From Tribonema minus (taxonomy: Eukaryota > Sar > Xanthophyceae > Tribonematales > Tribonemataceae), in contig JAFCMP010000546.1 of NCBI GenBank assembly GCA_017506865.1, positions 496,001 to 560,000 on the forward strand: a stretch of DNA of 64,000 nt, in the 5' to 3' direction. The notes under the pieces are model-generated. The model ran no database searches. It was not told the DNA's origin and saw nothing but the letters and a program-made list of their open reading frames with translations. A program made the position numbers and the translations under genes. Shown here in pieces: positions 1 through 48,285 of this stretch (its first letter is position 1; the number at the start of each line of letters is the position of its first letter).

Positions 1-232
1 CGAGCTGGGTCATAATGCCATCTGCATGCGCGGCGTGCAGGTGGAAGCGATCTCGTTCGATACGGTGCGCATACCGCTGTTGCCGCTGGCGGCGTGGCGG
101 CGCGGCAGCATAGCGGCGCAGGCCACGGGGCTGCGCAGCACCGGGCGGCGCACGCACGAGGACGAGTGGGACGAGGCGCGCTACCTGGCCAAGGCGGTGG
201 CGTACCGGCGGTGGACGGCGGATTACGTGCAG
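1..232 (+). CDS. VPS13: VPS13 exon 1 (partial; N-terminal region)
   Basis: The frame starts at base 2 and is already open at the window edge, so the first coding exon or exons lie upstream. ISFDTVRIPLLPLAAW looks like the IPW-type strand of the chorein domain, and DEWDEARYLAKAVAYRRW looks like the charged helix that follows it. It ends phase 0 at CAG|GTAAAG. Confidence 0.75.
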
Positions 233-3200
233 GTAAAGCGTTGTTGCGCGAATCGTTTGTTTGCGCCGCCATCCGCACTCCGCACGATGACATCGGGGCT
301 GCGCGCGGCACTGGCGGGCGCGCTGCGTGCGGCGATGGCGTGCGCACAGGGGGGGGCGGGTGGGGTGAGGCAGTCTACCTCGCAAAGGCGGTGGCGTACC
401 GGCGGTGGACCGCGGATTACGTGCAGGTAGAGCGTTGTCACGCGCATCATTCGTGTGCGCCGCCATCCGCACTGCGCATGATACGTTGAGGGCTGCGCGC
501 GGCAGTGGCGGGCGCGCAGCGTGCGGCAGCGACTGCATGCGCACAGAGCGGCGCGCCGGTGGGACGAGGGCGAGCTACCCTAGGTTTAGGTTCAGGCGGC
601 GGCGTGCCGGCGGTGGACCGCAGATTGCGTGCAGGTAGGGCGCTGCGCGTTCAGTCGCTGGTTTTTGGTGTGCGCTGCATTGTACGCCAAAACAACGCGC
701 CGCGGCGCCGCGCCCGGCACTGCCAGGCAGGGCGGTCGGGACGAGTCGCTGACCTGGCTCAGGCGCGGTGGCGTACCGGCGGTGGACGGCAGATCGCGCG
801 GAGGTAGGATGCTGCCTGATGTCATTCTGTGTTCCGTCTGCACCCCACTGTACACTACACGAGATCCCTGCGCGCTGTGCGCAGCACAGACAGCTGGCGG
901 AGGCGGTGAACTGCACTTTATGTACAGGTGGAGCGGCTCGGACCGTTGGCGTACGCCATCACGCGCGTTGGTTACTGTGCGCGGCACTCTGACGTCTATG
1001 GCAGAGGACCGGAGATAAGATCATCCTACAGGTTGAGCTCGGGGTGTTCAGGGTTCGGGTCATGGCCTGACCCAACCCTAACTCCAACCCTAAGTCGCCA
1101 CGTTGGCATGGTCCGTCTCCTGCTAACCCTAATCTGGCCCTTGCCCCCCCAGCAACATGGCACTTCGTGCTGCTTAGTCGCTGCCAGGGCGCTGGTCGAG
1201 GGAATCTCTGTGTACGCATGCTCATGTTGCCTTGCGCGTCGCAACAGTTTCTTCAACGCACTCGCACACATAGTCCGCATCCTCTTTGCTGAGCAATGTT
1301 GCAATGCGTGGGGGGCGGTGGACTGACAATGCCACTCACAACGCTCGCCAACTCCTTGATGTGAATCCTACGGTGTGTATGCGGCCTTCTTGCTCGCTGA
1401 CCGTGCCAGGCGCTTGTGGAAGGGACGTTCGGACGGAAGCTGCGGTGGTGGATGAGCACGGTGGACAGCCTCATCAACAACTTCCAGTTTGACGTTTCGG
1501 ACATCCACCTGAGGTAGGCAGCTCTCTGCGGGTGCCACAGCGAGTCCAGATTTGCATGGTGCTGGTCGGGCGCGTAAAAAGCTTGATGTTCAACTTGAAG
1601 TGTGACGCGCAAGGGCGTGCGGTTACACTATTTCACGGCAGCGCTGCTTGTGCAGTGACGCCGAGCGTGACATCACTCTGCACGAAGGCACGGAGCCTTT
1701 CCAATGGCGCATCAACAACTGCGCGTCGCGTTGCAGCGCCATGAACATGGGGATGGGGGGGTGGAGAGGCAGGGAGGACTCTCTTCGGGTTAAGTAATCC
1801 TGGCCCTAACCCTACGCCAGTCATACGGCTGCAGGCTTGCGCCCGCGCGTCAAGCAGTGAGCGGGCATGCACGGCGTCTTGCAGCTGTCTGGTTTCTGAT
1901 GTACTTCGAAGTACCATATTCTGTGCCAGACAAAGCTCCCCCCCCATCACCACCACCACCACCGTGCTGCGCGCGGGTGACTGCACACTGAGCACTGCTT
2001 CCATTGATGTGTTGTGTTGTGTCATCGAGGCAGCGCTCATTCTTGGGACACCGTCGCACGACGCGGCGCCCGCCCCGCGCCATGAGATCGCCTCACGCAC
2101 CACCAGCACTGAGATGCTGTGCACTGTGCACGATGCTCAACGCAGCGTTTTCAGGCAGCAGTGTTCAGTGCACCCCTGAGCGCACTGCTGCTGCAGATAC
2201 CCCCAGCCGCGCCCCCGCTCCTCGTTCACACTCCGCGCGCAGCGCTCTGCGCGACCGTGCTAACCCTAACCCTAATCCTAACCCTAATCTCACTGACGCG
2301 CACCCTAGTAACGCTGCACGCAGCATAACCCCAACCCTAACCTACCCCCGACCGTAACCCCGCAGACCGGCTGCGTGCTCACGCTAAACGCCTCATCGCA
2401 TCGCACGTTTTCCGCGACTTGCACCGCCCTGCAGAATCGAGGACAGGCCCAACGGGCACAGCTTCGGCATTATGGTGGCGCGCTACACGTGCCGCTATCA
2501 TTTCATCACTTCGCCCACGCGTTCCATCACCAACCCCCCCCCCACTCCCCCCCCGCAGAATCGAGGACAGGCCCAACGGGCACAGTTTTGGCATCGTGGT
2601 GGCGCGCTACACGTGCCGCGCGGAGCCGGGTGACACGGCCAGCCTCGGCGCCGTCACGCGGCACACCGAGGCGACACGACTCGTGTGCTACGTGGACCCG
2701 CACCTGGATGCATCGCGCAGCCCCGAGTGCCCCATTCTCGAGGTGCGGCGGCGCTGCCTGGATTCATCTGCAGCACGTCCGCCTAACGTTTGAATCCAAC
2801 TGTTCAACATGCGCAGTGCCGCATGCGGAACCTACTGCAGCTGGTGCAATGAATGCAATTGATTATTTATGGTGTGGTACTTTGCAGTAACAGCGTGTGC
2901 TTTATGGACCCGCACCTGGACGCATTGCGCAGCCCAGAGTGCCCCATTCTCGAGGTGCGATTGATGCTGCGTACCAGGTCTTGCGCTACTCTAACCCTAC
3001 TTACCCTAACTCTGACCCTAGGTGAGTCCTACCTTAGGCGTCACGCAGCCCCCCAAGTGCCTCGAATGCATTTGGTGCAACGAATGCAACGGGTTATACC
3101 TTTTTGTAAAACAGGGTGTGCTACACGGGCACGCACATGGACGCATCGCGCAGCCCAGAGTGCCCCGTGATCGAGGTACGATTGACGCTGCTTACTAGGT

Positions 3201-5177
3201 CTAGCCCTACCTAACGCTGAGCCCTGCCCTAATTGTCGTGCAGCCCCGAGTGCCCCGTGCTCGAGGTGCGACGAGGTTAATCTGTGGTACATCCGCATAA
3301 CGCTTTTAGCATTTTTGAATAGCAACCGAGATGGAAGTCATGCTTGCTGTGGCGATTGCTGCGGCCGCTTTGTGATTTTGTGACACATCAGATTAAAATG
3401 AGACTTGCGTACCTACCCTGGTACCACCCTGTCAATATGAGTTCATTTCAGTGAAGGCAACTAAAACCCGGACAAACTACTTTGAACCCAGTTGCGTCAC
3501 TAGCGGTGTATATGCATGTATGAAGATGGATGGGATATATTATGTGCTTCTACATAATTTCAAATACACTATGAAACGAGCTAGTTTTGTGGACTTTGTA
3601 CTTATTCAAGGGCAGGTACATTTGGTCCATGTACACAGCACCAGCAGAGCCCAGCGTATTCCACATCCGTGCTCGCAACGACGACCGCAAACCACAGCGC
3701 CCCCCCCCCCCCCCCCCCAACCCCCCCACCCCCCCCATACACCCCAGATCGACAGCGCCACGCTGCTGGTCGACTTCCCGCACATCTTCACGACGCTCAT
3801 CCGCAACCGCGCCGTCATGCCGCGCGGCTGCGGCAAGCGCCTGCGCCTGCGCTGCGACGCCACGGGCGCGCGCGTCACGCTGCAGCCGAACCAGTCGCGC
3901 ACCCTCCTCTTCTCCGCGCTCGGCGCCTTCTGTCCGGGCAAGTACGCGGCGTGGAAGCGCGCGATCCGTGAGGCAGACGCGCGCGCGTGCCGCCCCCTCA
4001 CGCCGCGGCAGCGCGCCGCCTACCTCGACGCGGCGCTCGCGGCAGGCGGCATCTACGCGCCGCGCGGCGCCGCCGCGCCGCTGCGCGACTGGCTGCCCGG
4101 CGCCGCGCGCCGCCGCGCCGCGCGCGCCGCCGCGCTCGCGCGCCTCGAGCGCCACATGAGCTACGCGGAGATGGTCGCGCTGCGGCGACGCGCGCGGCGC
4201 TGGCCGCCGCTGCCGCCGCCGCCGCTGCCGTCGCCGGCGCCCGCGGACGAGGAGCTGCTGAGCGGCGCCGGCGGCGACGGCCGTGGCGCCGCCGCTGTGG
4301 ACTTTGCGCGGCGCGTGCAGGCGCTCAAGCTCGCGGCGTGGGAGCGCAGCACGTGCCTGCGGGAGATCTGGGTGGAGCGCTGCTGCGTGCGCGGCGCGGC
4401 GGCGCGGCTGCGGCGGCGCGCGGCAGCGGCGGACGACGAGGCGCACGCGTTCGCGACGCCCGTGCAGGTGCGTCGGTTGAGGTTGGCGTTGAAGTAGGAC
4501 TTGCCTGCATGTTGCGCACGAAGGATTTTGGCTGCTGTATTGCAGATGGCGGATGCTGGGTTTGGGTTCTTGATAGTGTTTGGATTCGAATGAGGACCGC
4601 AATCAGGCGGAATTCGGCTGGCTGGCAGCCCCGCAGTGCTGCCACTAGCGAGTGGACGCTACGCCAGTGGCCCGCTGAGATGATGGACACACAGTAAGCG
4701 CATTGGAACTTGTGAGCCCTCCGTGCGTACACGCACGCAATTCACGAGATACGGCACCTAACACTCTCGTGCGCACCTTTGCGTGAGGGGCTCTCACCCG
4801 GCAGCGCGCGCCGCCGAGCCGCCGCGCACTATTGCGATCCGCTACCCGGCGCCATCACTCATCGCCGCAACAGCCTCCAAAAATCATGGCGCACGCTCAT
4901 TTGAGGTACAACGTCCCCGCCCCGGTCCATGCCGCCGCAGGCCACCGTCGCCGCGGAGCGCTTCGAGGCGCGCTTCCGCATGTTCCTCGCGCGCAGCGCC
5001 GCCAGCGCGCGCGCGCACTCGCGCGACGCCACCGGCGCCGCCGGCGAGCCCGCGCTGCCGTGGATGGACGCGCACATCAGCGCTCAGCACCCGGTCGTGC
5101 TGGACCACCACTGGGCGCGGCGCGCGCGCTACGCGGCGTCGTCCGCGTGCCTCGTGGACCCCGTCTGCATCGGCGGC

Positions 5178-5208
<31 letters not shown>

Positions 5209-8200: not shown

Positions 8201-10449
8201 GGCGCCCTCCGACCTCCTGGTCACCGTGCACCGCTGCCGGCACCTGGCCGCCCCTGCCTACAGCGGCGGCGACGGCGGCGGCGGCGAGGCGCCGGTGCAG
8301 CCGTTCGTGCGCGTCGCTGCGGGCGGCGGCGGCAGCGCCAGCGCCCAGTCTTCGCGCACCAAGGTGTCCAACAATCCTCTGGACCCAGTGTTCAAGGAGC
8401 GGTTCGTTTTCCACCTGAGCCCGCTGGCGCGGTCGCGCGAGCCGGGGGTAGCGCGCGCCGCCGCCGCGGGGGACGGTGCTGCTGGCGGCGGCGGCGGCGG
8501 CAGCGGCAACGGCGGCGGCGCAGCGGCAGTGAGCGTGGCCGTCATGGACAGGTACGCCCTTCCCTGTTCTGCACGAACCTGAAGCTGTCAGGATTGTCCA
8601 TGAATGTCGTTTTGGATCCCAGCACACGCCGCCGCGCATAACGCCACCTAAAAACTTCAAGACCTGTCGTTGCATGTCAATATAGAAGCTGAACGCGTTG
8701 TTCTCATATGCATCCATCAAAGCCTTCCAGGTATGCCTTCAACTGTCAGCTACAAGGGCGTCCTCAAATGTATCCACGTCACACCCTGAAGGTCTGTCCT
8801 AAACTGTCGATCTGAAGCTGAATGCGGTGTCTTTGAAGGTATGTATGTTCATGCATATGCGCAGGGGCCGCATGTCCGACGAGGTCATCGGCACGGTGGA
8901 CATCCCCCTGCTGCCGGACCTCAAGGGGGCGGGGACGGACTGGCACAGCCTCAGAGGGCCCAACGGGGGGGTGGCGGGGGAGGTGCAGCTGGAGCTGCAG
9001 TGGGCGCCGTCGCCGGCTGAGGTAAAAAACTGCATTATTAGCGTATGAGGGGCAAGTGATGATGTTCTGCGCTGCATGCATGCAAAGTATCCTGAGCACT
9101 GTGTCTTTGCAACTCTGCGGAGGCGCATCGCGCGCGGGCCGGGGGTGCGGTAGCCAGCGGAGGTCGCCGGCTGAGGTAACGCCGCCATATGCCGGCGTCA
9201 CGCGCGGCTGGCGTCTGCAGCGTGGCACTCTCGTCCGCAGCAGCCTATATTCTGTAGGCGTGATGGTACCCAGGCACATTGCTGACTCGCTGCATTACAG
9301 CTCATTTGGCTGGGCATTGTTACGCACTGCACTACCCCCTCGGTCTGAGCAATGCTGAACCGTTCAGTTGGTCCAAGCAAGCGCACAGGGGACGTCCAAG
9401 CAGGCCTACACAAGCCGCGTGCACAACGCAACGAGCGCACGCTCTCGTACCTCTCGCACTGCGCATTTCTCCAAACCAGGCGCTCGCGGCGGCGGATGCA
9501 AGCGCACAGGCGCGGTTCAAGCAAGCCTAAACCAGCCGCGTGCGCAACGCGATGATCACATGCTCAATGCCGCGAGCGTAAACCAGCCCCTCGGCTGGCG
9601 GCAGCGAGCACGAGCAGAAATCGCACGCTTCTCGTCGCTCACACCGCGCATTTCTCCACACCAGGCGCTCGCAGCGGCAGACGCGGGCGACGCCGCGGGT
9701 GCGGGCGAAGCGGCAGCGCTCGTCGCGCAGCAGGACGGCCGCGGCGGCACAGCGGGCAGGGGCGGCGGCAGCGGCAGCGAGGCGAGGGGCATGTACGTAT
9801 CCCGCGACGTCGCGTCCGCCGAGGACTATCCGGAGCCCGAGCAGGTGCGTGTGGCAGCGCGCTCGCTGCGCAGCGCAATCGATACTGCAGCGCCAAAGAT
9901 GCTGAGCGCTGTGGACGTTATGCATCAGTGCTCAGCGCCGGAGCGTGGCGCTTGGCGCGCGTGTGAGCAGTGGCGGCGGCAGCGAGGCGAGGGGCATGTA
10001 CGTATCCCGCGACGTCGCGTCCGCCGAGGACTACCCGGAGCCCGAGCAGGTGCGTGGCAGCGCTCTCCGTTGTCCCCCGGGCCCCTCCCTTTCCCCTCTT
10101 CAGCCCCTATGGAGGGTATGTAGAGGGGGGTGCCAGGGGACCCCCCGTGGGGGGTATGTTTAGGGGGTATGTTCAGGGGGTAAAAGGGGGCAAGCGGCGC
10201 CGGCGGTCCGACGGTGCTGAGCGCTGTGGACGTTATGCATCACTGCTCAGCGCCGGAGCGCGGCGTCTTGCGCGCGCGTTGCACGTGTGCTGAGCTCCGA
10301 CGTACTGCCGCCTGGGCGTTAGCGCGACGTAGCGCGGCGGCAGCAGTTGGCGCGGGGGACTGGTGTAGCTGTTGTGGATGTAAGAGCGCATGCCTTTGTG
10401 ACTGCCAATATGCGGGTGCATGCGCACCGCGTCATCCAAGAGTGAGCAG

Positions 10450-10482
<33 letters not shown>

Positions 10483-13400: not shown

Positions 13401-16400
13401 ATGCCAATATGTCTTAAGTTGCTGAGTAGCTCCGAGCCTCCCTGCAACACCATCCGTGTGATTGAAAACGGCGCTGGTAAAGCGGTGTTCCTCCCAGGGG
13501 TGTGCATCGCTCCATCTGCCGCAGCGCCCTCAATGCAGCGTCGCTGCCCCCCCCGCGCCCCCCCCCGCGATCATGCAGCTACGTCGCCGCGCGCTGCGAG
13601 GAGTTCGCGTCGCCCGTGGTCGCGCGCCATCCTCATTGTAACTGTAGCATTTTGGTCTTGTATGCCTTGCACAAAACTTATTGACAGAGCCTTTGCCTCA
13701 GCGCCCCCCTTGCCCCAGAACCCCCCTGACCCCCCCCCCCCCCCCCCCGTGATCATGCAGCTACGTCGCCGCGCGCTGCGAGGAGTTCGCGTCGCCCGTC
13801 GTCGCGCGCGCGATCCTCGGCCGCGCGCCCTCCCTCCCGCACCTGCTCGCGTCGCTGCCCGCGGCCGCGGGGGCACGGCTCAGCGCCTTCTGGGACCTGC
13901 ACGCGCGCGAGACGGGGGGGAGCGAGGGGGACCCCTTCGGGGGGCAGGGGGCGCGCGCGCTGCAGACGCGCATGGTGCGCGCGCTGCGCAGCTACGCCTT
14001 CGCGCGCGAGGCGTGGGGGCACCTCGTGGTGCCGGCGGCGTTTGGTGTGCCGCGCGCGCTAGAGATCCGCGCCGCGTCCGAGCGGCAGTATGCGATGATG
14101 CCTGCGCCTGTGGGTGTGGGGCAGGCGTACTACCTCGACAAGCCGCAGTTCGCGATCGCGGCGCTGCCGGCGGCGCTGCGCGGGCGGCTGCTCACCGGCA
14201 TCATGACGCACCGCAAGGTATGGTATGTATGTAATGTGTGTGCATGTAGGGAGGGCTTGAGGCTAGGGTTTAAGTGGCGGCTAGAGGCCACGCAGGCGTG
14301 CTACCTCAACAAGCCGCAGTTCGCGGTCGCGGCGCTGCCGGCGGCGCTGCGTGGGCGGCTGCTCACGGGCACGTGACGCACCGCAAGGTATGGTATGTAA
14401 TGTGTGCGCATACATGTAGGGGTAGGGTTAGGGTTGGAGTTGCGGGTAGTCGACACGCAGGCGTACTACCTCGACAAGCCGCAAATCCCAATCGCCGCGC
14501 TGCCGGCGGCGCTGCGCAGGCGGCTGCTCACCGGCATCATAACGCACCGCAAGGTATGATATGTACGTATGCATGTGTGCATGTATGTAGGGGTAGGTGT
14601 AGGGTTCGAGTTGCAATTAGTAGCCATGCAGGCTTGTAATCTAGAGAAAGTCGCGGTGTTGTGAACCAGGCGGTGCTGCTGCTGCGATTTGTGGGGCGGC
14701 TGCTCATGGCATCATGGCGCACTGCAAGATTCGTATGTGTACATGCATGTAGGGTTAGGGTTTGGGTCTGGGTGAGGGCTAGTAGTGCAGCGTTTCTGAA
14801 GTGTGCCTTGGCACGCGTCTTCACCTCGTATCATCAATTACATGTTTTTGAAGTACTTGAACACTGAGAGCAATTGACGCATGCGCCTGGGAGGGATAAT
14901 CCCGTTTCACCGTTGTCACTCACGCCAGTCGCCTGCACACGCGCACAGGAGACGCACGTGAGCAGACGCGTGCATCACATGCCTGCAGCAGCACTGTATA
15001 CATCTGCATCGAGCGCAGTCGTGATGCCGCTTGCAAGCGCACATGCTGTCTGTCTGACACCGCGCGGCGACATGCGCGAGCAGAAACACACACCGCCACA
15101 CTTGTACATCATCGCAGCCCTGACACCTACAAGTCAAGCGCAGCCATGACACCTGCGAGCCCCTCCCCCCCCCCCCCCCCCACACACACACTCGAACACA
15201 TCAAAACTCAACTGTTCATCAATCGCAGCCCTGACACCTATGAGCGCGCCTGTACGACGCCACGAGGCAACATGCACGAGCACAGCATCTCTCCCCCCTG
15301 TCGCCCGCCCCCCATATACATAACTGAAGTCCCATCGAGCGCAACCCTGACGCCTACGCGCGAGCCTGCACACGCCTGCACGCGGCATCAGGCACGAACA
15401 CAGCCGCCCCCCCCCCCCCCCCCCCCCCGCGCCCCCCATATACATATTGAGATCCATCGAGCGCAGCCCTGAGACCTACATGGCACTTGCACATGGCAGT
15501 ACGCGGCATCACACGTGAGCGCAGCGGCGGCCCCCAACGCGCGCCACCCCCTCTTCTGTCCAAGTCTGCCAAAGACCCTAATGATCGTAACTTTAAGGTT
15601 TCCGTAAAGAACTCTCCTCTTCCGTGCGCGTGCGTTCTATGCAGGACCGCTCCTGCAGCGGCGTGCGCGCGTTCCTGAGCTTCATGCTCACGGCGCCGGC
15701 GCTCGTGTACGTGTGCCACGACGCGCGCCTGCGCCAGAAGCCCGTGTGGCTGCTGTACTTTGCGCGCGTCCCGGGCGCTGTCGTGCGCACCAACGAGTGC
15801 GACTTTGAGGTCTGGGAGAAGGTGAGGAGCCCTTGCCTTACCCTAACCCCAACCCTCACCCTTAACCCTAGTGTTCGGGTTGTGCCAGAAGCCCGTGTGG
15901 CTGCTGTACTTTGCGCGCGTCCCCGGCGCCGTTGTGCGCACGAATGAGTGCGACTTCGAGGTCTGGGAGAAGGTGAGAGCCTTGCCTCTAACCTAGGACT
16001 AGGGTTCAGTGACATTAGTGTAAGGGTTGGGCCAGAATCCCGGCATCCCCAACGCCGTCGTGCGCATAAACGAGAGCGACTTTCAGGTCTGGGTGAAGGT
16101 GAGGAACCCTTGCCCTGACATAGGACCAGGGTTCAGTAACCCTAGGGTTAGGGTTAGGGGTACCGCTCCGCGAGGGCAACCTCAAAATGAGGTTTGAAAT
16201 TAGGGTTGGGGTGGGGGTTACTCACCCCCCTCTGACGGTGGGGGGACAGCTTGCGGCGAGCGCTTGCATCGTTGCGTTAGGAGGGGGGGGGGTGGCTTGC
16301 TGTTGGTACTTTGAAACCATGCAATGTTGCGGCATGCATCTGCATTGCTTTCGTTTTGTGGTGAACCACACGGCCTCAAACATTGTAACTGTTGAAACAT

Positions 16401-23774: not shown

Positions 23775-23807
<33 letters not shown>

Positions 23808-32800: not shown

Positions 32801-35800
32801 GCGCGCGCGCTGCTGCTGTTGATGGTGTGCACTGCTGCTGCTGCTGCTGCGGGGTTGCAGCGATGCGCGGTTGTCGTGCTCTTTGATTGCATGACTGCCC
32901 CTCGGCGTACCGCTGCAGGTGGGTCCGTGCGGCGGCGCGCGCGCGCGCTGCCGCTGATGGTGGCTCCGCTGCTGCTGCTGTTGCGGTGGCCGCTAGCTGA
33001 GCAGCACTGCACGGCGGTTGTCGTGCCGTTTGATTGCATGACTGCTCCCGCGGCACACCTCGTGCTGCTGCAGGTTGGTCCGCGCAGTGGCATGCGCGCG
33101 GCGGCATGCGCGCGCGCTGCCGCTGATGGCGCGCCGCTGCTGCTGCTGCGGCGGCGGTCGCGCGCTGAGCAGCGATGCACGGCAGTTATCGTGCTGTTTG
33201 ACTGCATGACAGCCCCGGCGTCCCACCTCGGCGTGCAGCTGATGGTGCGCCGCTGCTGCTGCAGCGGCGGCCACGAGCTGAGCAGCAATGCGCGGCGGTT
33301 TCCATGCTTTTTGATTGCATGAAACCCCCTCTTGAACCTGGCCCTGACGTCAATCGAGTGAAGTCCCCTTGCGTGCTGATTGCGGGTCGCAGTCCTCAGC
33401 GTCAGGGCATCAATAGGGTCAGGGTAGCTGGCTGCTGCTGCAGACAGACTGACGGTGGCGTGCTTGGTATTTGGACGTGCGAACCAGCGACTGTGCGTGT
33501 CAACCACTGCGAACAGTAAAGAAGCATGTCACTAAGTAGACCAGCAGATCTTTACACCTCAACCCTAACCTAACCCTCATTCTCACCTCAGAGCTGTTCC
33601 CATCTCCCCCTAATGCGCAGCTGGCACCGGTGCTGGTGCGTCACCAGTCGAAGGAGGGCGCCATGCAGGCAGCAGCGCGCCTCGCCGACCCCCCCGCCCC
33701 CCTCTGCCCGTCCCCCTACGTCCGACCTGTCTACCCGGGGTCCTCCATCATCATCTACGACTTTCCAACTGTGTCCGCGCTGGCTGCGGCAGCAGCGCTC
33801 ACTACCACCGACAGCGGCAGCAGCGGCGGCGGCGGCGGCAGCGGCGGGGACGGCAGCGACAACGATCCGCCTCGTCGATCGCTGCTGCTGCGCGCTGTTG
33901 CGGCGCCAACAGCGGAGCACTGTGGCGGAGCTGAGGGGGGTGCGGAGGGGGGACTGGGCGGTGGCAGCGAGCGACACGAAGCCGCGAGCAGGCGAGTGAC
34001 GGTTAGGCACAGGCATCCGTCGTGCGTGTGTAGATGAAGTGAGGTCATGTTGAGAGGTGATGTGCAAGGAACAGCACTGCCCATTACAAAGCCTTCTGAA
34101 TTAACGCCAGGATGAGGCCCCCTTCTCTCATATTGTCGTTTGCCTTTGTTATTCAGTTTTGGCAACAGGGCGGGAGGGGGGGGGGGGGCAAACGCCTTGT
34201 TTGCCCCCAATGATTGGAACACAACGACATGCAGAAGGCGGGGTCTTTTCTCAATCATCTTGTCTGCCTGCGTTTTTCTCACTGCGATACAGGCAGGATT
34301 TCTCTCAGCCCGCGTCGGCGGAGAAGATGGGGGCGACGCACCTGTGGGTCTCCCACTCATGTCATGTCATGTTCCGCTCACACTTGCTCACCATGACGAC
34401 ATGCAGGAGGCGGGGTCTTTTCTCAATCATCTTGTCTGCCTGCGTTTTTCTCACTGCGATACAGGCAGGAATTCTCTCAGCCGGCGTCGGCGGAGAAGAT
34501 GGGGGCGACGCACCTGTGGGTCTCCCACTCATGTCATGTCATGTTCCGCTCACACTTGCTCACCACGACAGCAAGCAGAACGTCGTTCTGTCAATCGTAC
34601 CGTCTGCCTGAGAGGCAGGGGGGGGATCTCACTCACTCGTATTCTCTCAACCCCCCCCACTTGCCCACGACAACAACAGGCAGGAGGGGGTCCCCTTCTC
34701 TCAGCCCGCGTCGGCAGAGAAGATGGGGGCAACACATCTCTGGGTCTCGGACCCCTGCGGGCGGCGCTACCTCGTGGCAGCAGCCGTGTCACTTCAGGTA
34801 AGCTCGCGCAAAGGAAGTCAACCGGTCAAGTATCACAATTCTACTAGAAGCGGCAGCGCTGCTGCGGCAGACGAGCGCTTGCCATCCGTCCGTGCACGTG
34901 ATGTGTAGAATGTAATACTTGGAGGTAAGTGTGCACACGCCGCGCGGGGTACTTGACGTGTACTCGGGTCTCGGACCCCTGCGGGCGGCGCTACCTCGTG
35001 GCAGCGGCAGTGTCACTTCAGGCATGTTCACGCCAAGATAACCGCTTTATTGTGGCAGCTGGCGTGTCACTGCAGGCGAGGCCGTGCAAAGAACAGCAAA
35101 CGGCAACATAGAAACGGTTGTGTTTTGGCGGCCGCCGTCGCACTTCAGGCGTGCGCAAAAAGAGATGTGATAGCTACAGCCTTGTTGCGGCCGGTGTGCG
35201 CCTCGTGCCTGTCACCCAAGCAATTATTTACACAGTACAGTTTTCCCTGTGAGGGCACACCAATGTACTTGAGTGCACATGCACTCTTCTTATGCGTACT
35301 AGTGTACTCCCTGGCGGCATTGTGCGAACAGCGGCGGAGCACTGCCTCGCGAACTTTGTGTACCCTTCACCTGAGCGTTACCCCCCCCCCCCCCGTGCCC
35401 CCCCCCCCCCCCTACAGCGCTCCACGGTGCACATGACGCTCTCCGATGCCGCACGCTACCCACCATACCGCATCGAGAACCGCAGCAGCACCGCGACAGT
35501 GCTCTACCGGCAGGCCCCGGCGTCGTCCTCCACAATCGGCGGCAGCGGCGGCGGCGGCGCCGCTGGCGCGGAATCCGCTGCCGCCGCCGCTGCCGCCGGC
35601 GCCCGCACGCTGCTGCCGCTGCAGTGGCACTCATTTGTGTGGGACGATCTGGCAAGGCCGCAGGAGGTGTGGGTGGCGCTGCTGCCGCCGGACGGGGGGG
35701 AGGGACTTGAAGTTGGAAACAGCGGCGGCGGCGGCGGCGGCGGCGCCGCGGCGCTGCACTGGATGGCGTACCGGCTGGACAGGATCGGGGAGCTGGAGCC

Positions 35801-38800
35801 GCTGGCGGCGGCGGACTGGGCGGCAACGGCGTTTACTCAGGTGCAGACTGCGCAGATGTGTACTGTACCTATTGTTTCTAAGGTCCACTTCAGTATTGAA
35901 GAAGAGGCTTCGGTCTGTGAGGTATTGTACCGGAAAGTGCGGCTTGGCGTGAACTGCATGGCTTGCCCTGGCAAATGACGTTGACGCCGCCCTCACTCTA
36001 AGCCTAACTCCAGTTCCAGCGCGTATGCACGCGCGCGCCAACGTATCGCGTCCTTTGTCTGAACTCGCAGTGTCAACGCAAATGCGTGCCTGCGCGCTTG
36101 CTGATGCCCCTGAGGCGACGGTCGCCTTCCTCTGCCGCCGCGCAGGCACTTACCCTAACCCTAGTCTACCCCTAACCTGCCCTAGCCCTAACCTTAAGCG
36201 CAGGCTGTGCAGGCAATCTCCTTAACCCTAGCCGTAACCTAACCCTAGCCCTAACCCGACCCTAACCTTCCCTAACCCTAACCCTAAGCGCAGGCACTGG
36301 CAAAACTGGGCGCGGACGACGATGGCGGTTTCGCCGCGGGCGGCGCCGGCGCGCTCTACGGCGGGGGGCAGGGGGCGGGGGTCACCAAGCTGTACGCTGA
36401 GGTACGCCGTCGTCTGAGCTTGTTTGAAGTGCATGTTGAAGTATGAAAACAGAGGCGGGTGGGTGTCAGGGGGGGGGGATACTGAGCTGGGCGCTGAGGC
36501 AGCGCCTCTCGGCAGTTTGGAAGCGCGCCTCGCGGTACGCATTGCGGCACGAGGACAGCGTCATGAGGAGTATTTGAGGACGCTTACTGCACGCATGATG
36601 CCCCATGGTCGAAAGCGTCGCCTCATGATCAAGCGTCATACTGACTAGGTGCCACAAACCCTACTTGCGGCAGTCCACATGGCCATGCCAACTGGACCCC
36701 CTCAGGCTGCGCTGCCGCCATCGGTGCGCCGCCCGCCAGCTCCGCTCCGTTTTTTTAATCTGTTCTTTAAGAATGAGAAACAATTAGGAAGATGTGAACG
36801 ATTCCTTGCCGCGCGCCGAGGGCAGGACGCGTGTGCTGTCCTTCGGCGACGTGCGTCTCGCGCACGGCGCGCACGGCGACGGCATGTATGCCTACGCGCT
36901 CTCGCACGAGAAGCAATTTACTTTAAAGTATACGGTTAATTTACTCCAAACTACGAAGTATACGATTACAAATACTTCAAAGTATACAAAATCCGTGCCG
37001 CGCGCAGGTGCGCGCGGAGGGCAGGACGCGTGTGCTGTCCTTCGGCGACGTGCGCCTCGCGCACGGCGCGCACGGCGGCGGCGCGTACGCCGACGCGCTC
37101 TCGCAGATGAAGCGCCTCTACACGTGCCTCGACATCAGCGTCGCGCTCGCCGGCATGAGCCTCAACCTGGTGCGCAGCGGCGGCAGTGGCGGCGGCAGTG
37201 GCGGCGGCAGTGGCGGCGGTGGGGAAGGCGCAGCCGACGCCGAGGTGAGTTGCTATGCCACTTGGCTTGAATTGACGCCTGTTTTGTCGGCGTGTTAGGT
37301 TAGGGTTGGTGTTAGGTGCAACTCAAGCGGAAGCGTGTTGCTGTGCCACTGAAACTGGATTCATGCCCATTTTATCGTCGTGTTAGGGTTAGGGTTGCGG
37401 TTAGGTGCACTTGAGGCGCTGACGGCCGCTGTATCACCGCACGGGCGTCAATGTTGGCGCCGAGCTCGCGTACGTGAGCATGAACCCTTGTGTGCAGCAG
37501 CAGGGTGCAACGCCTGCCGCCGCCGTGGTCTCACCCTGCGCTGCGGTGTTGCGGCAGCCGCCGCCTCCGTCGCGCGCAGCTGCGGTCGCTGCATGTGGAG
37601 ATCATCGCGCCGGCAAAGGCGCGGCGTCAGCTCATGCACTGAAGCGCACTGTCTGATGCCGCCATGTACTCACCCTGTGCTGCGCCGCTGCCGCCGCCGC
37701 CGCCGCGCGCAGCTGCTGTCGCTGCACGTGGATGGCGTCGCGCTGGCGAAGAGTTTGAGCTCGTGTTAGGATCACCTTCAGGCTTGGGGTGGACGGCGAT
37801 CTGACCATTTGCACTTCATGTTGCCGCCATAGTCTCACAATATGTCTCGCAATGTGCCGCGCTGTCGCCGCCGTCGCCGCCGCCGCGCGCGCAGCTGCTG
37901 TCGCCTGCACGTGGACGGCGTCGCGCTGGCGAGCGCTTAGAGCTAACTAATGTATCCAGAGGCACTGCCTGATGCTGCCTGTTGGAATATGAGAAGGTTC
38001 AGTACTTCGTGCATACCCTAGGGGTAGGGCACGGTCCAGTTCTAAGGATTTCTCCAGTAAGTTCTAGCAAGTTCTTGAAGGTTCTGGTGCCCCTACGGAA
38101 CGGAAGGTTGCCGCTGGCCCTTGTTTTGTGTCAGCGATAATATCACTTCTTCTTCTCCCAGCTCGAGGCGCCTGCGGGCGGCCTGCGGCCCGGGCATGGC
38201 TGCTCTCCTCTCTCTCTGCGCACCCCCGGTTTTCCAATGGTTATGAGCCTGGTGCGCTTCCTCTGCCAGATGCTCACCCTGTGCCCCGCTGTCGCCACCG
38301 CCGCCGCCGCCGCCGCCGCAGCCGTGCGCAGCTGCTGTCACTGCACGTGGACAGCGTCGCGCCGGCAAAGAGGTCGGCCTGGTGTTAGCATTATCTTCAG
38401 GCCTGGGGCGAACGACGCTCTGACCAGATACTCTTCCTGTTGTTGCCATAGTCTCACAATATAGTCTCGCAATGTGCCGCGCTGTGGCCGCCGCTGCTGC
38501 CGCCGCGCGCAGCTGCTAACTCTGCACGCGAATAACACCGAGCCGGCATAGGCTCAGAGTCAGCTCATGCTTTTAGATGCATTGTCTGATGCCGCCAGAG
38601 TCTCACCCTGTGCCGCGCTGCCGCCGCCGCCGCCACCGCCGCCGCGCGCAGCTGCTGTCGCTGCACGTGGATGGCGTCGCGCTGGCGAAGCGCAGCCGCA
38701 GCGCATGTATTTTGTTACATGCACTGTCTGATGTTGCCAGAGACTCACTTTGTGCGCCGCTGTCGCCTCCGCTGCCGCTGCGCGCAGCTGGTGTTGCTGC

Positions 38801-41800
38801 ACTAAGGACCGTCGCGTCCGTGCTGCACGGGCAGGTGGACGATGATCTGACCTGATGCTCTTCCTGTTGCCGCCATAGTCTCACAATATAATGTATCGCA
38901 ATGTGCCGCACTGCCGCCGCCGCCGCCGCCGCGCAGCTGGTGTCGCTGCACGTGGATGGCGTCACGCTGGCGAAGCGCAGCCGCAGCGACAGGACGGTCG
39001 CGTCGGTGCTGCACGTGCAGCTGGACGACATGCGCCCGCGCGCGCGCTTCCCCGTTGTCATGCAGCCCGTCGACAGCGGTGAGCGCTGCCTGCGCTCTGT
39101 CTGCGAGTGTGTTTCCAAGTCAGACCGTCGATTGCCTGAAACAGAAGAAATATTTCAGTACGTGCTGGAGTTTCTTACGTGCTATGTATACGAGCAGCTG
39201 CAAATACATAAGATGTGCTTATACACTTGTGTAATTGGGTGTGCCCGCTCTGCGCATGTGTTTTCAAGTACAATCTCAAGTACCTTCAGCTGCACCATTG
39301 GTGTGTGCATGATTGCGTGTGTGCGATGTGCATGCTTTCCTGTCGTACGACACCCTGTCACCACTGCATGCGATCCAACTTCCCTACAGGATGCCAGATT
39401 CGCAACACCAGCCGCGCTGTGAAGTACTGCAAGCTTTGCAACCCCCACACCATTGACAATTGCTCTCACGCTCCTCCGCGCAAGCAGCGCCTGAGCATCT
39501 CATTTTAACTCATGCACCAGCCCCCCAACACAGACAACACACTGAAAGTAAGTCGCACCCCCCGCAACCTCTACCATCACCTCCACCCCAACCCCAACCC
39601 CAACCGCCTGTGCAGGCTACAACAGTCACATGCGGCGGCGCGACAGCGGCGGCACAGGCGGCGGCGCCGCCGCCGCCGCGGTGCCCCCCGCCATACCGTT
39701 CGTGTGCATCCAGTACGAACGCGAGGTGGCGACGCTCGGCATGCCGCACTTCAAGTCCTTCGAGGTGGCGCTGCAGCAGTGCTGCGTGCGCGTCGACGTG
39801 GACTTTGTGCTGCACATACTGAGCATCGCCACGCGCGTGCTGCCGGAATTTACGGACTCCGCCGTGCTGGACAAGATGTCGCGGTGAGCGAGCTGTGACG
39901 CGCGTGCGTGCTGTGATCAGCAGCGCTCCGCGCACGCGCCTTAGGGTTCGGGTTAGGTTTTGGCTCAGGGTCAGGGCAGGGTTAGTGTTGCAATCGGGGT
40001 TAGGCTAAGAATAAGCATGAGGCGCAGTGCTGGGAAGGGGCGCCTCAGCATCAGCGTTGCATATCGGCATGTGCAGCTCCTGAAGCGCTATCCTGTGGCA
40101 CTACTGCGACGCATGCACGGCGCGCCGTTCACAGCCGTGTTTGGGCGCACTTCGCCTCTGACCTGAGCCCTTAATTCGCGTCAACGTTTGTGTACTCAAA
40201 CCATTGTGCTGCCATGTTATGAGCGTTGCCATGTGCATGCAGGGTGTTTTGTTGTGGTTTGAGGCCTTGCCATATTCGCCCCATTGTCTGTGGCAAGCGC
40301 AGTGCTCAGCATGCGTCATGTGCGCAAGCGTAGGCGGCGCAGCGCGCCCGCTGTCACGAATCTACTACCTACATTCCCGCTATAGTCAAGGTCAGCAGGG
40401 GGGCTAACCCTAACCCTCGCCCATCAACATGGCCAGTCCTTTTTAGTGCCGGCGAATACCTACCTGCCTCCGGCTCGCTGAGCGCGCTGCGGCCCACCAG
40501 ACGCTAACCCTAGCAACGTTGTCCCGACTAGTTGCCGAAAGTGATCACAAGTACCTACTGGTGGCTGACTCTGCTGACAAATATCTGCCTACCCGCGCCC
40601 CTCCGCCGCCGCCGCTGCCGCCGCTACCGCTGCCGCCGCCGCCGCCGCCGCTGCTGCTGCTGCGCAGCGCGGCCGCCAGCAGGCGCTGCGGCGCACCCTC
40701 ACCAACCGACCCCTAGCGACGTTGTCGTGAATGGTGGCTGAAAGTACTCACGACTACCTACTGATGGCTGAAGCGCTTATTATCGGCTAATTGACACCTA
40801 CCTGCCCCCACCCTGTCGCCGCCGCCGCCGCCGCTACTGCGCAGCGCGGCCGCCAAGCAGGCGCTGCGGCACACGCTCACCGCGCCCGCGCGCCACGACC
40901 ACTCCCTCGTGTACCTGGAGATGTTTCGGCACGCGCCCATCGCGGTGCAGCTCGAGCTATACGTGGGGCAGCGCGCGCTGTCGCTTGAGGTATGTATCTG
41001 TGCTTGAATACATACCCCTACCCCTATGTCCTCAACGTGGCCCCAACCGTACTGCATCTTGAGCTGCGCATTGGGCAGCGCGCGCTGTGTCGCAGTTGTA
41101 TACTTACCCCTATCCCTGCCGATAGCATGATGCTTATCCTGACCCTTAGCGTAACCCTGATACTGAGTGTGGCTCAAGCTATGGCGTGGGGCAGCGCGCG
41201 CTGTCCCTCGAGGTACGTATGCGCGCTTGCATATATACAGACCCCTACCTCTATCCACATCTTGATGCTCAGTTCAACCCTTAGCGTGACCCTGATGCTG
41301 AGTGCCGCGCGAGCTGTACGTTGGGCAGTGCGCGCTGTCGCTTGAGGTATGTATGCGCGCTCGTATATACATACCCTTACCTCTATCCTCATCGTGATGC
41401 TAATTTGAACCCTTAGCCTAACCGTGAGATTTAGGGTGGCTTGAGCTATACGTGGGGCTGCGCGCGCTGTGGTGCAGTCGCATACTTAACCCTACCCCTA
41501 TCGAAATCGTGATGCTAAACCTAACCCTCACCCTAACCCTGATTCTGAGGGTGGCCAGAGCTATGAGCGCACAGTCGTTCGAGTCACGTTCGTGCGCTCG
41601 TATACATATCAATACCCGTATCCTCATCGTGAAGCTAGTGTTGATCGCAACCCTAATGCTGCTCGAGCTGCGTGTGGGGCAGTGCGCGCTGTGCTTGCAG
41701 TCGTATACCTACCCCTACGCTTGTCCTGGTTTTGACGCTAGCCCTGACATTAACCCTTAGCCTAACCCTGATACTGAGCGTGGCTCGAACTATATGTAGG

Positions 41801-44800
41801 GCACTGTGTGCTGTCCCTCAAGGTGCATGCTGTACACGGAGGGGGCAGTGAGCGTTGCTGGCGGTCGGCGGACGCTGTGCGTGCAGCCGCATTTCTGTGG
41901 CGCATTTGTGGCTGCTGCGCCGTTGCTCCCGCAGACGACACGCGACTGGTGGTTCTCGGGTCGGGGTTAGGGTTAGGGGTAGGGTTAGGATTAGGATTAG
42001 GGTAAGGGTTAGGAGGAGGCGCACGCTGTGCAATTGCTCACCCGCAGACCACGCCGGCCATCGAGGACACTGATGCGGCGCGCAGCGTGGCAATTCTTGG
42101 CAGCAGGTTTCTGTCATAGCTCGGCGTCGCATGAGGCGCATGAAGCGCTCTCTCAACTCTCAAGATAAATGTTGGCATTGCATCGCAAAAACGCCGCTGC
42201 AGATGCTGGCCCACGAGGACCTCGACGCGGCAGGTGCCCTGGCAATGCTCAGCGGCGGTTTCCAATGATGCCGCTGTACTGATTCGCTTCTCGTTCCAGC
42301 ACAAGCTCATGCTCTTCCGTTCTACCGCAAGATCTCACTCACATTCAACAAGGTAGGCTCATCAGACACAACAGAAAACTGAACTTTTCACTTGAACAAA
42401 TGCCGCAGACGCTGGCCAACGAGGACCCCGACGCGGCGGGTGGCCTGGCAGTCCTCGGCGGCAGCTTCCTGAGCGCCGTGGGCGTCCTGGGCGGCACGCT
42501 GGCGCGCATCAGCCCGACGTTCGTCTTTGACGAGCTGCTGGTGACGCACTACTTTGGCAGCGCGCGCGAGCTCGCCGCGGCGCTCGCGCGGGGCCTCGTG
42601 CAACAGGGCGTTGCGCAGGGGTACAAGGTGCGTCCCCTTGCGTTGAAGTTAAATATGCACTACTCTGGCAGCGCGCGCGAGCTCGCTGCGGCGCTCGCAC
42701 GGGGCCTCGTGCTACAGGGCGTCCCGCAGGGGTACAAGGTGCGCCCCCTTCGGGTTTCAACAATTTAGTTGTGAGAATAATCATTTGATGAACGTAAGGG
42801 TTCCGCTGAGCTAGCGGAGGCGAAAGTGAGGGGCCTCGTGCAGCAGGGCATCGCGCAGGGGTACAACGTGCAACCTTAAATTGTGGTTAAATCCAGGGTC
42901 AGGATGAGCTCGTGAAAGCGCTCTGCCTGTTGCATTGAGATTGAGTTGAAGGTTGGAGTCAGGTTTGATGGTTGACGGTTGAAGTTGGGTATGTATGATG
43001 ATTAAGGCGCTGTGCATAGGTACAGGGTGTGGCCCCTTACACGAGAGTAACGTTTAGTAACAGGGCTACGGCTCGCGACGGCGCTCGCGCAGCCGGGCAG
43101 CGAGCGGAGCTATAAGGTGCGGCCTCGCATACAGGATCAAGTTCAAAAGACAACAATCCGTCCTTTTTGACGCACTCTCGTCAGTCGGCACCTGTGCAGG
43201 CGCGAGCATGGCTTTGCAACTGCTTTGCAACTGCATGCAGCTGCCAGTTGATTAAGTGTCTCGGAGCGCACCAGCTGCTTAGCCTTTGATAGGGCACTTC
43301 AAAGTACACTGCTGTCAATGTATAACAACTCAAGATACATCACTGCAGACAGCACACACACTCTGACCTCGCCACCGTGGCCAACGTCTGACCACTTTGC
43401 CTTGCTCTTGACACTCTTCTGCTTATCGACGACTGCACAGGTCGTGGGCTCCATGGAGCTGCTGGGGGACCCTCTGGCGCTGGTCAACAAGCTCAGCGAC
43501 AGCGTGCTGCAGTTCCTGCGCACGACGCAGGTGCGCAATGCGCCAAGTTCAAGTTTGAACTTCAATGACTTCAAGTGCAACTTCACAAAAGCGAGAATAC
43601 GCGCCTACGCCAAATTGCGCCTCGTCACTCTTCAGCGCCCACTGACTGCGCAGTTGCCTACTAGTAGTGCTGTGACACAATCTCGGCAGCAGCGTGCCTG
43701 CGAACAATGCTGCTGTGCAGGTCCCATGAGAATTTGTTGCATCTGCTGGTACTTAGCGTACGTACCTACAGCTCTCCAGGTTTTGAGCCAGTGGCGAAGC
43801 TGATATTGTGCAGTGACCCCGTGGCACTTACGAGGGCTAGTATTGGGGACGCTGCACTTGGCGATGGCGCGCTTCGGCTCCTGTACTCTTGTCTGCAGTG
43901 CAGTTGTGTACTCCAGTCTGAACTGACGCTTGCAACGCCATCGTCGTTGTCCATCAGCTGCATTTTGTGCAACGCTCTCCTGTGTGTGTGTGTGTGTCCG
44001 CACCGTGGCAATTTTCTCTGGCAGAACTGTTCATGTTTGAGTGCAATTTTCCGCTGCCGGGTCAAAAGCGCCATTTCACCAACTGCGGTGCACCGGGGGT
44101 CTGCCAAGCACAGCAGCGCTCGTCAGCAGCGTTCGTCAGCAGCGCTGTGAGAGACGCGCATTGCTGCGCGCGCAGGCAGTTCATAGCCGCTAACCCTAAC
44201 CCTGATAAAAGCCGTGACCTCATTTCCCCTTTGCAGGCGGAATTCAGGGGGGAGGAGCCCACGTTCGGCGCAGGCGCACGCATGCTGCTATTCATGAACC
44301 CAAATTTACAACCTAACCAACACCATAAAACTATCTCAACGCATCTGCCCCCATACACCAACCCCAATACCATTTGAAGCTGTAAACCCATCTCCCTCCA
44401 TGCAGGCGGAATTCAGGGGGGAGGAGCCCACGTTCGGCGCCGGCGCGCGCATGCTGATGTCCAGAAAACCAAAGTCACAACCTCACTAATTTCAGGAATC
44501 CATCTCAACGCCGCTTCCCCCATTTACAACCCCACTACCACATGAACTCGTAACCCCTTTAATCTCATCGCAGGCGGAATTCAGGGGGGAGGAGCCCACG
44601 TTTGGTGCGGGCGCGCGCATGCTAGTTTCGGGCGTTGTTGGCGGCGCCTTTGGCAGCGCGGCCAAGATTGCGGGGTCTCTGGAAGACGTCATTCGCGGCC
44701 TCAGCGGCACGGAGGTGGCGGACGCGGAGGGCGGCGGCGACACGCGCGTGCGCCACCTCAAGCACGGCTTCCAGAGGGGGGGGCAGGTATGTTCAAGCGT

Positions 44801-47800
44801 GTGCTTTCATGTGCTTCACGAAATACTCCGCATTCAGAGGTGAATCGCTCGTGCATGCGCCTTTTGCGAACACGTACACGTACTGTTATGCGCATGGTAG
44901 ATGCTCTGTTCATTCTTTGCACGACGCGCGCGTGCGCCACCTCAAGCACGGCTTTGAGAGGGGGGGGCAGGTATGTACTTATGCTTGATTCGCGCTAAGG
45001 GCGCAAATCATTATTTATATCATTATATATGTATATTAGTATTAATTCTCGCTTGGGCGGCGACACGCGAGTGCGCCACGTCAACCACAGCTTCCAGAGG
45101 GGGGGGCAGGGGTGTGCTTTTCGTTAATTCTTGCTCAGGATGCACGGCCCGAAAAGGCATGTACCTCAGAGCAGTTACTTCTATGTGCTTTACTTATGTA
45201 TGGTTTGTACAGCAGAGAAGGGGTGTGTGTGTGGGGGGGGAAGGGGGGGGGGGGGCGTGCGCCACCTCAAGCACGGTTTCCAGAGGGGAGGGCAGGTATG
45301 TATCTCAAAGCATTTGTGCTTTTATGTGCGTCATTGATTGCTATAAATCAGTGCTTTGTACAGGTTTCCGGGGGGGGGGCAAGATATGTTTTTCAAACCA
45401 TGTGCTCCTATGTGGCCGCGACACGCACGTGTGCCACATCAAGCACGGTTTCCAGAGGGGGGGGCAGGTATGTATTAATTCTCGCTTGTATGTACCAGTT
45501 CTCGCTGAGGAAGATGCACTTGTGCTTGATTCGCGCCCAGGGCGCAAAAGGTATCCATCAATTCTCTTTTGGGGCGCGGCACGCGCGTGCGCCACCTCAA
45601 GCACGGCTTCCAGACGGGGGGGGGGCAGATATGTTTGTCAAAGCATGTATTGGTATGCGCTTCATGAATATACTGCGCATGGCCTTCAGAGGCGGTGTGG
45701 TTCGTGCATGTGTCTCTTGCGAGAACATGTACGTGGACATGTACTGTTGTGTTCATGGTAGATGCGCTCTGTTTATTCTTTGCATGACACGCGCATGCGC
45801 CACCTCAAGCACAGCTTTCAGAGGGGGGGGCAGGTGTGTACCTCTTCAAATGTTCATACAATCTTCGTACAGCTTGGGGGGGGGGGGATATGTTGTTCAA
45901 AGCATGTATTTCACAGAGTACTCCGCATGGCATTCGGGGGGGCAAAGGGGGGCCGGCATGGATTTCAAAGCATGTGCTCTTATGTGCACTGTACGTTCTC
46001 CCTTTCTTCTTTGACTTTGAGGTACATGTAATGACTGCAGGCATATGGCCTAATGCAGACACGCCACGACAAGCATCTAATCCAACCAAACTGTGTGACA
46101 AGCTCTTCTTGGTGCTCTGGGAGCACTGCTGGTTTGCGATGTGTCTGTAATGTGGCGTGTGTGGCACCGCGTTCAAGCTTGCCCGATCGGCACTTGAATC
46201 GGACTCATTGATGCGACTCATTGTTCGCCACTGCCCCGCGCAGGTGCTGTATGACTCCATCCAGCAGGGCATCTCGGGACTGGTGGACCGACCCATGGAA
46301 GGCGCAAAGGTGAACACGGCTTATCCTTCATCTTTTTGACCCTAAACATCGGGATAATAAAGTGCACAGTGCTGTAAAGGCTCGTTCTTGCAGTGCAATT
46401 GCGGCAATGCTCATCAAGTATGTGAAGCTCTCCATCATGTTGCTCGGAGCAAAGGCTGACATTGGCTGCACGCACGATCGCTCCACAACAATCCATAGAG
46501 CGCACAGCTTTGAAGACTTTTTGTGTTGCGAACAAGAATATTGTTTGGGCACGGATACCAGATTGTCAATGTTTTGATTGATTGTTCTGGGGAAAATAGG
46601 GAACTGAAAGGGAAAGGTATGGCTCGAACCGGACCTGGCAGGAGCCCAGGGACTTTGTAAAGCTGCTCAAAAAAGCTCAGACACTGGCGCTGCTGCACAA
46701 TCGGGCGGGTGTTGCTACACAGCTTCCACTCGGCGCATGTGCATCGCGATGCGCGCCTCGCTCCACGGCTCAGTGCCTAACGAAGGCCCCGATAGGCTGA
46801 ACCACCGCATAAACTAGATCCGCTCGCTTTTCAACACGACACACAGTCATTATATGGCTATATAGTGCATGCGAAGCACAAACACGACATTGGACTCACG
46901 TGTCTAAGTATAATAATGAAACTGCACTGCCGGCCCAACAGGAGGAAGGCGTTGCGGGCTTCCTGACTGGCATGGCCAAGGGCATTGTGGTCGCCGTTGC
47001 CGCGCCCGTTGCCGGCGCGCTCGGAGCTGTGTCTAAGGTCACAGAGGGCGTGGACGCATCGACGCGCTACCGTCAATTGGAGAGGTACGATTTGCATGTA
47101 CGCGCGCATGATCTGCTTGAGGAGAAGATGTACTGTTTTGAGTATGCCCGCTTTTGCGCACACAAGGCTGCTTGGATTGCGAACGTAATGCGACCAAGCG
47201 AGTGAACGCACCATCAGGCGACTTGTGTTTCACAAGGGCCTCATACTTCTATCAACTTCGCTTGCCAATGGGGCGCGAACAGTCCACTTATCTTGCAATG
47301 CATTTGACGCAGGACCCCTTGTCCGAAGAGGGACTCAATCGCAAAAAGGCTTCCCCCTCTTCACACTACCTCTAACACCCCACAATAAGTACTTTGTTGA
47401 CCTTCTCTTGAGGGGCGTACACCCCATGAAATTTGCAATATGTGCAGCTCCAAAGCTCGTGAAATGCGTGTGCTCACAATGCATGATTCAGTTGTGTACT
47501 GCACATGCTCGTTATTGAGCCTGGCTCGGGGCTCGAAAATGCCCAGATGTTTGATGTCAAGCTTGCTACCAGCGTCTTCAAGCACCTTGGGACAAAGTGG
47601 GCCCAACGCGCGGCGGTGATCACTTCTGGACGACATTGCCAAGTAGTTGTACTTTGTATTTGCTTCTGCCTGGGGCACGAACAAGCCCGCCCTGCTTGGA
47701 TTGCGCACGTTAATCGAGTGCATAAACCATCAGATGGGCTTGCATCTCATGAAGGCCGCCACGTTGCACTGTTATTTCGTTGGACTGGTTCTTCTCTCCG

Positions 47801-48285: not shown

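Follow-up and report, generated by a model that had tools for sequence, protein, structure and literature searches.

The window analysed here, a 64,000-nt stretch of the Tribonema minus genome (C543:496001-560000, in a searched genome of 158 Mb and 554 contigs), raises the question of why exon edges with their splice sites recur in the adjacent introns, how far the pattern extends, and what process leaves such copies. The VPS13-like stretch on the plus strand, up to about position 48,285, is predicted to form one gene, a status that is likely rather than certain because the gene model cuts the stretch into five pieces. A VPS13_VAB Pfam match over the cut-off lies at 32096-33319 and a second VAB match, under the cut-off, at 23387-24454, a PDB search gives a weak Vps13 match (E=0.0036), and we take the C-terminal exons to resemble the VPS13 C-terminal region. 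Long GGC/GCG/GCC triplet runs are present at 5171-5255, 6263-6329, 8062-8178, 23769-23941, and 28768-28995, mostly in predicted coding exons, where they form Gly/Ala/Ser stretches in the VPS13-like protein; predicted introns contain long C or G runs at 3700-3737, 11982-12048, and about 45230-45255.

Exon-edge arrays in the window

Self-alignment of the window at E<=1e-6 yields 93 direct and 4 inverted pairs. The partners of 92 direct pairs are at most 1.3 kb apart and lie before 46 kb, and the remaining direct pair and all four inverted pairs fall on GCG/GCC-type runs. A more sensitive self-alignment raises the number of local direct pairs to 133, grouped into 31 clusters spanning 160-45910, and the exon-edge repeats described in the initial annotation are real. 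Inspection by eye of the clusters beginning at 14121, 18717, and 44738 shows the exon end, the GT, and tens of bases from the start of the intron recurring within the intron. Among predicted plus-strand exons of at least 50 nt, some of which are themselves miscalled copies, own-side copies are present at 18/55 donor and 17/54 acceptor edges, in keeping with the initial estimate of about twenty such edges; the range of 1 to about 8 copies per edge also fits, with six at donor 44786. A 239-base query (44738-44976) had no match in the genome apart from its own locus, using a search that skips very common words. Table 1 lists part of these arrays.

Table 1. Gene and repeat arrays in the window (window positions)
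Feature	Positions	Strand	Edge	Copies and other details
VPS13-like gene	1..48285	+		start lies upstream of window; probably single gene
Donor-edge array	160..815	+	232	copies at +194, +402
Donor-edge array	2682..3273	+	2742	copy ends 2954, 3175, 3265
Donor-edge copy	9767..10279	+	9844	copy end 10049; exon part near-identical
Acceptor-edge copy	13544..13809	+	13761	copy start 13579; identity 94%
Donor-edge array	14121..14772	+	14217	3 copies, ends 14387, 14553, 14728; period about 171 (about 98 nt exon, 73 nt intron)
Donor-edge array	15730..16158	+	15821	copy ends 15972, 16098
Donor-edge array	18717..19406	+	18785	scan copy ends 19017, 19130, 19240, 19355; about 5 copies by eye; period about 111
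Acceptor-edge array and other repeats	25618..26730	+	26665	copy starts 26037, 26132, 26276, 26411
CCCTAA-rich array	27070..27392	+		period 82 nt; predicted intron for most part
Acceptor copy	within 29902..31483	+	30220	copy start 30100
Donor array	within 29902..31483	+	30310	copy ends 30818, 30932, 31198
Array	32770..33331	+	near predicted donor 32792	about 4 copies; period 130
Array	34224..35037	+		period 172, identity 90%; acceptor copies before 34705; donor copy after 34797
Acceptor-edge copy	36811..37113	+	37008	copy start 36811
Complex array	37506..39028	+		about 8 copies across 1.5 kb
Donor-edge array	40945..41824	+	40989 (predicted)	copy ends 41212, 41346, 41697; period about 132
Donor-edge array	42546..42871	+	42627	copy ends 42738, 42866
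Acceptor-edge array	44209..44623	+	44585	copy starts 44248, 44417
Donor-edge array	44733..45910	+	44786	6 copies, ends 44970, 45109, 45295, 45467, 45622, 45833

Arrays in other genes and in PRP8

The initial annotation placed the pattern in a single gene, but many genes carry it. In a 194-kb region that takes in the window and its surroundings, local pairs (within 1.5 kb) number 372 direct and 1 inverted, and a Markov-2 resample of the same 194 kb contains 0 of either type; chance is excluded by this difference together with the restriction of the 44738-44976 query to its own locus. Elementary repeat pairs on C543 (n=206) have a median period of 180, with quartiles of 131-226 and 5 below 80.

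PRP8, which is on another contig (C531:380659-399324), was taken as a reference for firm exon edges. Spliced alignment gives 15 GT-AG introns of 422-1,131 bp, 10 of which are phase 0. The spliced protein and human PRP8 align over equal 1,258-residue spans, without a gap in the part of the alignment seen, and because these spans are of equal length the exon junctions are very probably correct. All 15 modelled introns are at least 422 bp, and the 5' coding part is open for 828 codons (380659-383142). The first acceptor is at 386455; the coverage, GT-retention, copy-divergence, and lineage scans used 386460, with the frame right.

All 12 matches to PRP8 exon-edge queries are in the query's own adjacent intron and on the same strand, with none in the other 14 introns; 11 extend to the exact edge and 1 ends 3 nt short. 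Mid-exon queries have no match in any PRP8 intron. The 26 direct pairs in 14 kb of PRP8 (72-97% identity) comprise 13 across donors, 7 across acceptors, and 6 that are intronic, with none wholly exonic and none inverted. Copies are present in the adjacent intron at 9/16 donors and 5/16 acceptors.

When the robust exon predictions on C543 are pooled with PRP8, 49 of 176 edges carry 94 copies, and in this single scan copies are more frequent at donors (32/90) than at acceptors (17/86; P = 0.028). A mismatched-junction control, in which edges are compared with the intron of another junction, gives 3/90 donors and 0/86 acceptors (3/176 total), with chance-like matches at 3/74 of the C543 donors; an earlier control, counted differently, gave 13 unfiltered matches among C543 edges. 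Exon edges outside PRP8 come from a crude predictor that had PRP8 in its training set and that, for PRP8, predicts 22 introns and has 12 of the 15 aligned introns exact.

Most intron-rich predicted genes of C543 carry dense arrays, as does PRP8. No nucleotide pair at E<=1e-3 is found in a 2.9-kb piece of a gene for an RNA polymerase large subunit, and of three random 10-kb loci, those on C1 and C200 have 1 direct and 0 inverted pairs each and that on C100 has 9 direct and 5 inverted. Exon-edge arrays are widespread and, because the polymerase piece is without pairs and two of the three random loci have a single pair, they are not uniform across gene regions.

A separate feature of the genome is its 92 LHC-family matches, some of which are closely repeated at C79:1260591-1261277 and C1:1236836-1237498; the close repeats suggest predicted multi-unit LHC proteins. 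The PsbO of this genome is closest to 'Extrinsic protein in photosystem II'/OEE1 chains that we take to be diatom, which together with the LHC matches points to a photosynthetic alga of the red lineage. The best match of an LHC fragment on C490 is to long (411-1048 residue) LHCI chains (PDB 9vfj).

Introns, intergenic DNA, and intron interiors

Repeat clusters are about 7-fold rarer in the sampled intergenic DNA than in introns, with 3 clusters in 22.7 kb of unannotated DNA that lacks clear signs of genes compared with 22 expected from the intron rate (P = 5e-7, a soft value, as stretches were dropped from the set once their coverage had been seen). The untrimmed unannotated set of 51.9 kb has a coverage of 13.4%, compared with 26.7% in introns. 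The C543 segments left out of the 22.7 kb are coding-like pieces at 427436-430478 and 583607-591234, which by eye and from recall we take to be TraB and TMEM245 tails; 506369-507274 and 533643-538399, which lie within the window gene; and 599002-610391, of which the last 10 kb is 98-100% multi-copy element. This element, roughly 10 kb long and close to the end of the contig (C543:600001-610000; copies 98-100% identical), is also found at the starts of C89 and C5.

The hexamers TTAGGG and CCCTAA are present in C543 and PRP8 introns at 0.70 and 0.89 per kb, compared with 0.15 and 0.39 per kb in the intergenic set used for this count, and TTGAAG/CTTCAA is also enriched in the predicted C543 introns and those of PRP8. 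It is possible that the telomere-like runs and the TTGAAG hexamer act as fork-stalling sequences. The PRP8 acceptor at 396303 sits in a telomere-like/TTGAAG-type run.

For C543 donors, local-repeat coverage is near 0.36 at the edge, near 0.30 within the intron, and drops to 0.07 by 100 bases into the exon; the corresponding values for C543 acceptors are 0.24-0.26 (edge) and 0.19-0.29 (intron). Intron interiors on this contig are duplicated nearly as often as edges. PRP8 taken alone favours edges more than C543 does, with a donor-edge coverage of 0.56 compared with an intron mean of 0.24 (0.25-0.31 at acceptors), and with 14 edge arrays and 5 interior-only arrays among 19 that are independent. 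If arrays are placed uniformly and are equally detectable, about 11 interior arrays are expected and 5 are seen (P = 0.003), and about 4 donor arrays are expected and 9 are seen (P = 0.0085). With interior detectability lowered to between a third and a half, ratios that are assumed because drift affects the two copies of an interior repeat alike, 6-8 interior arrays are expected (P = 0.10-0.32) and the donor excess has P = 0.06-0.13. The apparent focus on edges may owe much to conserved exons, which preserve the recognisability of old copies. The process is thus not confined to edges as the initial annotation supposed, given the C543 coverage and the interior-only arrays of PRP8. Copies equally common in mid-intron or mid-exon had been named there as evidence against its reading; those in mid-intron are partly seen, and those in mid-exon are absent (0/26 PRP8 pairs are exon-only).

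Structure and decay of the copies

Clear tandem periods that include an intron part are found in the window arrays at 14121 (171) and 18717 (about 111) and in PRP8 at donors E5, E6, and E15 and acceptors E0, E1, and E11. Together with the direct, local, and border-spanning nature of the pairs, this supports the initial reading of repeated tandem duplication across exon-intron borders. Among 71 donor copies found via their exon part, intron-side homology is significant in 35 (about 1 by chance), and the other 36 have no significant intron-side homology beyond +8, several of these having an exon part that is >90% identical. Copies found via their intron part usually have the exon part also (11/17 donor and 11/12 acceptor copies, 22/29 in all). 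Divergence in donor copies is 0.042 substitutions in the exon part and 0.130 in the intron part, compared with 0.115 and 0.169 in acceptor copies; gaps per 100 bases in donor copies number 0.55 in the exon part and 2.28 in the intron part; and the match is shorter than the period in 67/75 pairs of at least 85% identity.

The gap between exon and intron divergence in donor copies exceeds what a simple tandem model predicts, and the copies with a good exon part but no recognisable intron part are, together with the short matches in those 67/75 pairs, the main weakness of that model. Because plain tandem duplication carries both sides of the border and half of the donor copies have only one recognisable side, an additional step is needed, the candidates being deletion after the duplication, rapid turnover of indels within introns, gene conversion templated by the exon, or copying that is partly non-tandem. 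The many copies ending near the splice site prompted consideration of RNA-templated or exon-only copying as the main route, which was rejected because lone exon-interior pieces are absent from PRP8 introns and clear tandem periods occur elsewhere.

Differences between source and donor copy at codon positions 1, 2, and 3 are 0.071, 0.042, and 0.143, and this third-position excess could suggest coding selection on the copies, a candidate rejected by a lineage test that puts the excess on the source. Changes unique to the source are 1/392, 0/393, and 13/393 at the three positions, those unique to the youngest copy (the closest to the source) are 12/433, 12/435, and 15/438, and copy-unique changes over all copies number 67, 50, and 78. 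The copies drift freely, and the live exon changes at synonymous sites. The initial annotation noted that most copies keep the splice dinucleotide, and GT is indeed retained in 44/56 donor copies, but this rate (0.79) is no better than that of adjacent exon dinucleotides (0.80); AG is retained in 10/15 acceptor copies, compared with 0.82 for exon dinucleotides, a comparison that involves 15 copies only. Because changes unique to the youngest copies are even across codon positions and GT is no better kept, copies of differing age are snapshots of the live exon edge at different times and not maintained decoys.

Proposed mechanism and alternatives

Local, in direct orientation, anchored at borders, present in many genes, decaying neutrally, and dating from different times, the copies are probably left in introns as neutral copies of live exon edges by recurrent head-to-tail, border-spanning tandem duplication. 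Segments mostly of about 80-250 bp would be duplicated head-to-tail, repeatedly, in and around introns, and where a segment straddles a border (with X the exon end and Y the intron start) the locus would become X-Y-X-Y and so on. The outermost splice site would remain in use and the mRNA would be unchanged, as protein conservation suggests, leaving each inner X-GT-Y copy as a neutral passenger within a lengthened intron. Exon-internal duplications would presumably be removed by selection. With the live exon conserved and its copies drifting, old border duplications would stay recognisable longer than interior ones, and partly for this reason exon edges would look like the target. The mutation itself may arise from unequal exchange or, within one fork, from slippage or a switch of template during replication, and introns may be more prone to it than intergenic DNA either through being transcribed or through being rich in telomere-like hexamer runs. 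The border-spanning copies inside introns support intron growth via duplication, as was first proposed, and the arrays of competing splice sites described at the outset are likewise supported, as potential sites. More tentatively, and with the balance of probability against it, the duplication could be ongoing, genome-wide, and intron-specific, tied to transcription or splicing, with introns that lengthen inwards at their live edges in units of roughly nucleosome- or Okazaki-fragment-like size (quartiles 131-226 bp), a spliceosome that reliably selects the outermost site among as many as seven similar ones, and arrays that form a dated record of earlier exon sequence within each intron.

The most serious alternative, although an unlikely one, is copying targeted to edges and tied to splicing or transcription, in which a mechanism that recognises junctions places copied exon ends next to the junction to which they belong; RNA-templated repair and breaks at R-loops starting at donor sites are examples. 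The higher frequency of copies at donors, the loss of homology soon after the splice site in half of the donor copies, the intergenic scarcity of clusters, and the PRP8 excess of edge arrays at equal detectability all favour it. However, C543 coverage is almost flat from the edge into the intron, the clear tandem periods contain long intron parts, and the PRP8 excess is not significant at an interior detectability of a third to half. Selection could also yield the asymmetry between donors and acceptors, because decoy acceptors, lying upstream of the real site, would reach the spliceosome first and be more harmful. That the copied sites are selected decoys, or alternative sites regulating splicing, is very improbable: many copies retain GT, and differences among copies and from the source are mostly at third codon positions, but retention is no better than that of nearby exon dinucleotides, the third-position excess belongs to the source (1/0/13) and is absent from the youngest copies (12/12/15), and the spacing of PRP8 copies is not a multiple of three at 8/11 copies.

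Birth of introns through tandem duplication of exon segments that contain AGGT (the Rogers/Hellsten route), which the initial annotation invoked for intron gain, is still less credible as the explanation of the arrays. Exon ends are commonly AG|GT, and the 10/15 phase 0 introns of PRP8 are compatible with recent gain, but the expected signature, in which the intron start resembles the downstream exon start and the intron end resembles the upstream exon end, was upheld in none of the 37 introns tested. Each of the two similarities passes the 99% null in 3/37 introns (0.37 expected), two introns passing in both and four in total, and of these four candidates, one reflects a donor array, another a decayed donor copy, the third is low complexity, and the fourth is a 12-base PRP8 match off the edge. 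Introner-type mobile elements or other dispersed repeats are extremely improbable; introner carriers are known among algal lineages, which counts for them, but PRP8 exon-edge queries match their own intron only, the 44738 array query has no other match in 158 Mb (very common words skipped), and similar intron sequence at many unrelated loci was not found with that one array query or the PRP8 introns. Equally negligible is an assembly artefact, from collapsed haplotypes or misjoined reads, as the copies differ from one another (72-97% identity in PRP8) and decay neutrally while their sources stay constrained, nearly all pairs are direct, and such copies also occur in a conserved gene on another contig.

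Relationship to known systems and significance

Partial duplications inside genes, some with splice sites, occur as scattered events in other eukaryotes, whereas the arrays here are dense, on C543 genes and PRP8. Intronic minisatellites are head-to-tail arrays that turn over and decay; the arrays here are likewise head-to-tail and decaying, but their unit, often 80-250 bp in length, includes part of a live exon, and the copies therefore record past states of the coding sequence. Gao and Lynch (2009) and Hellsten (2011) reportedly describe tandem duplication as a source of introns, in single events, and Zhuo (2007) is said to describe human introns from tandem arrays that, by the title, are young and alternatively spliced. 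That human case, so far as its title conveys it, links tandem arrays to introns, whereas the present arrays lie inside introns of conserved genes.

Intron gain by in-gene tandem duplication (the ATP2A1 case of Hellsten 2011; reviewed in PMC3443670) shares with the present case short in-gene tandem duplications with splice sites; there, a duplicated AGGT exon segment gives a new intron, whereas here existing introns lengthen and none that is new was found. In a potato RdRp gene, a tandem duplication across an intron-exon border made a new intron (PMC4974935). There too, the unit reaches from the end of an intron into the start of an exon and brings real splice signals with it, but it was a single event, whereas 49/176 edges have neutral passenger copies here. 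Introners also affect introns genome-wide, but as a dispersed element, whereas the copies here are local (PMC9860276). Tandem duplication as an intron source is already established, as single events (PMC3443670, PMC4974935); no description of genome-wide exon-edge arrays, or of neutral border-spanning arrays at such density, was found among open-licence PMC papers judged by their titles and the openings of their abstracts.

Intron lengthening and the choice among similar splice sites are usually studied via rare single events or engineered constructs. This genome offers many natural experiments, and PRP8, a core spliceosome protein, is itself affected, with copies in the same exon context at 9/16 donors and 5/16 acceptors. 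Site choice by order of synthesis, duplication-driven intron growth, and intron-specific mutation become directly testable, and the copies are usable as neutral fossils of coding sequence.
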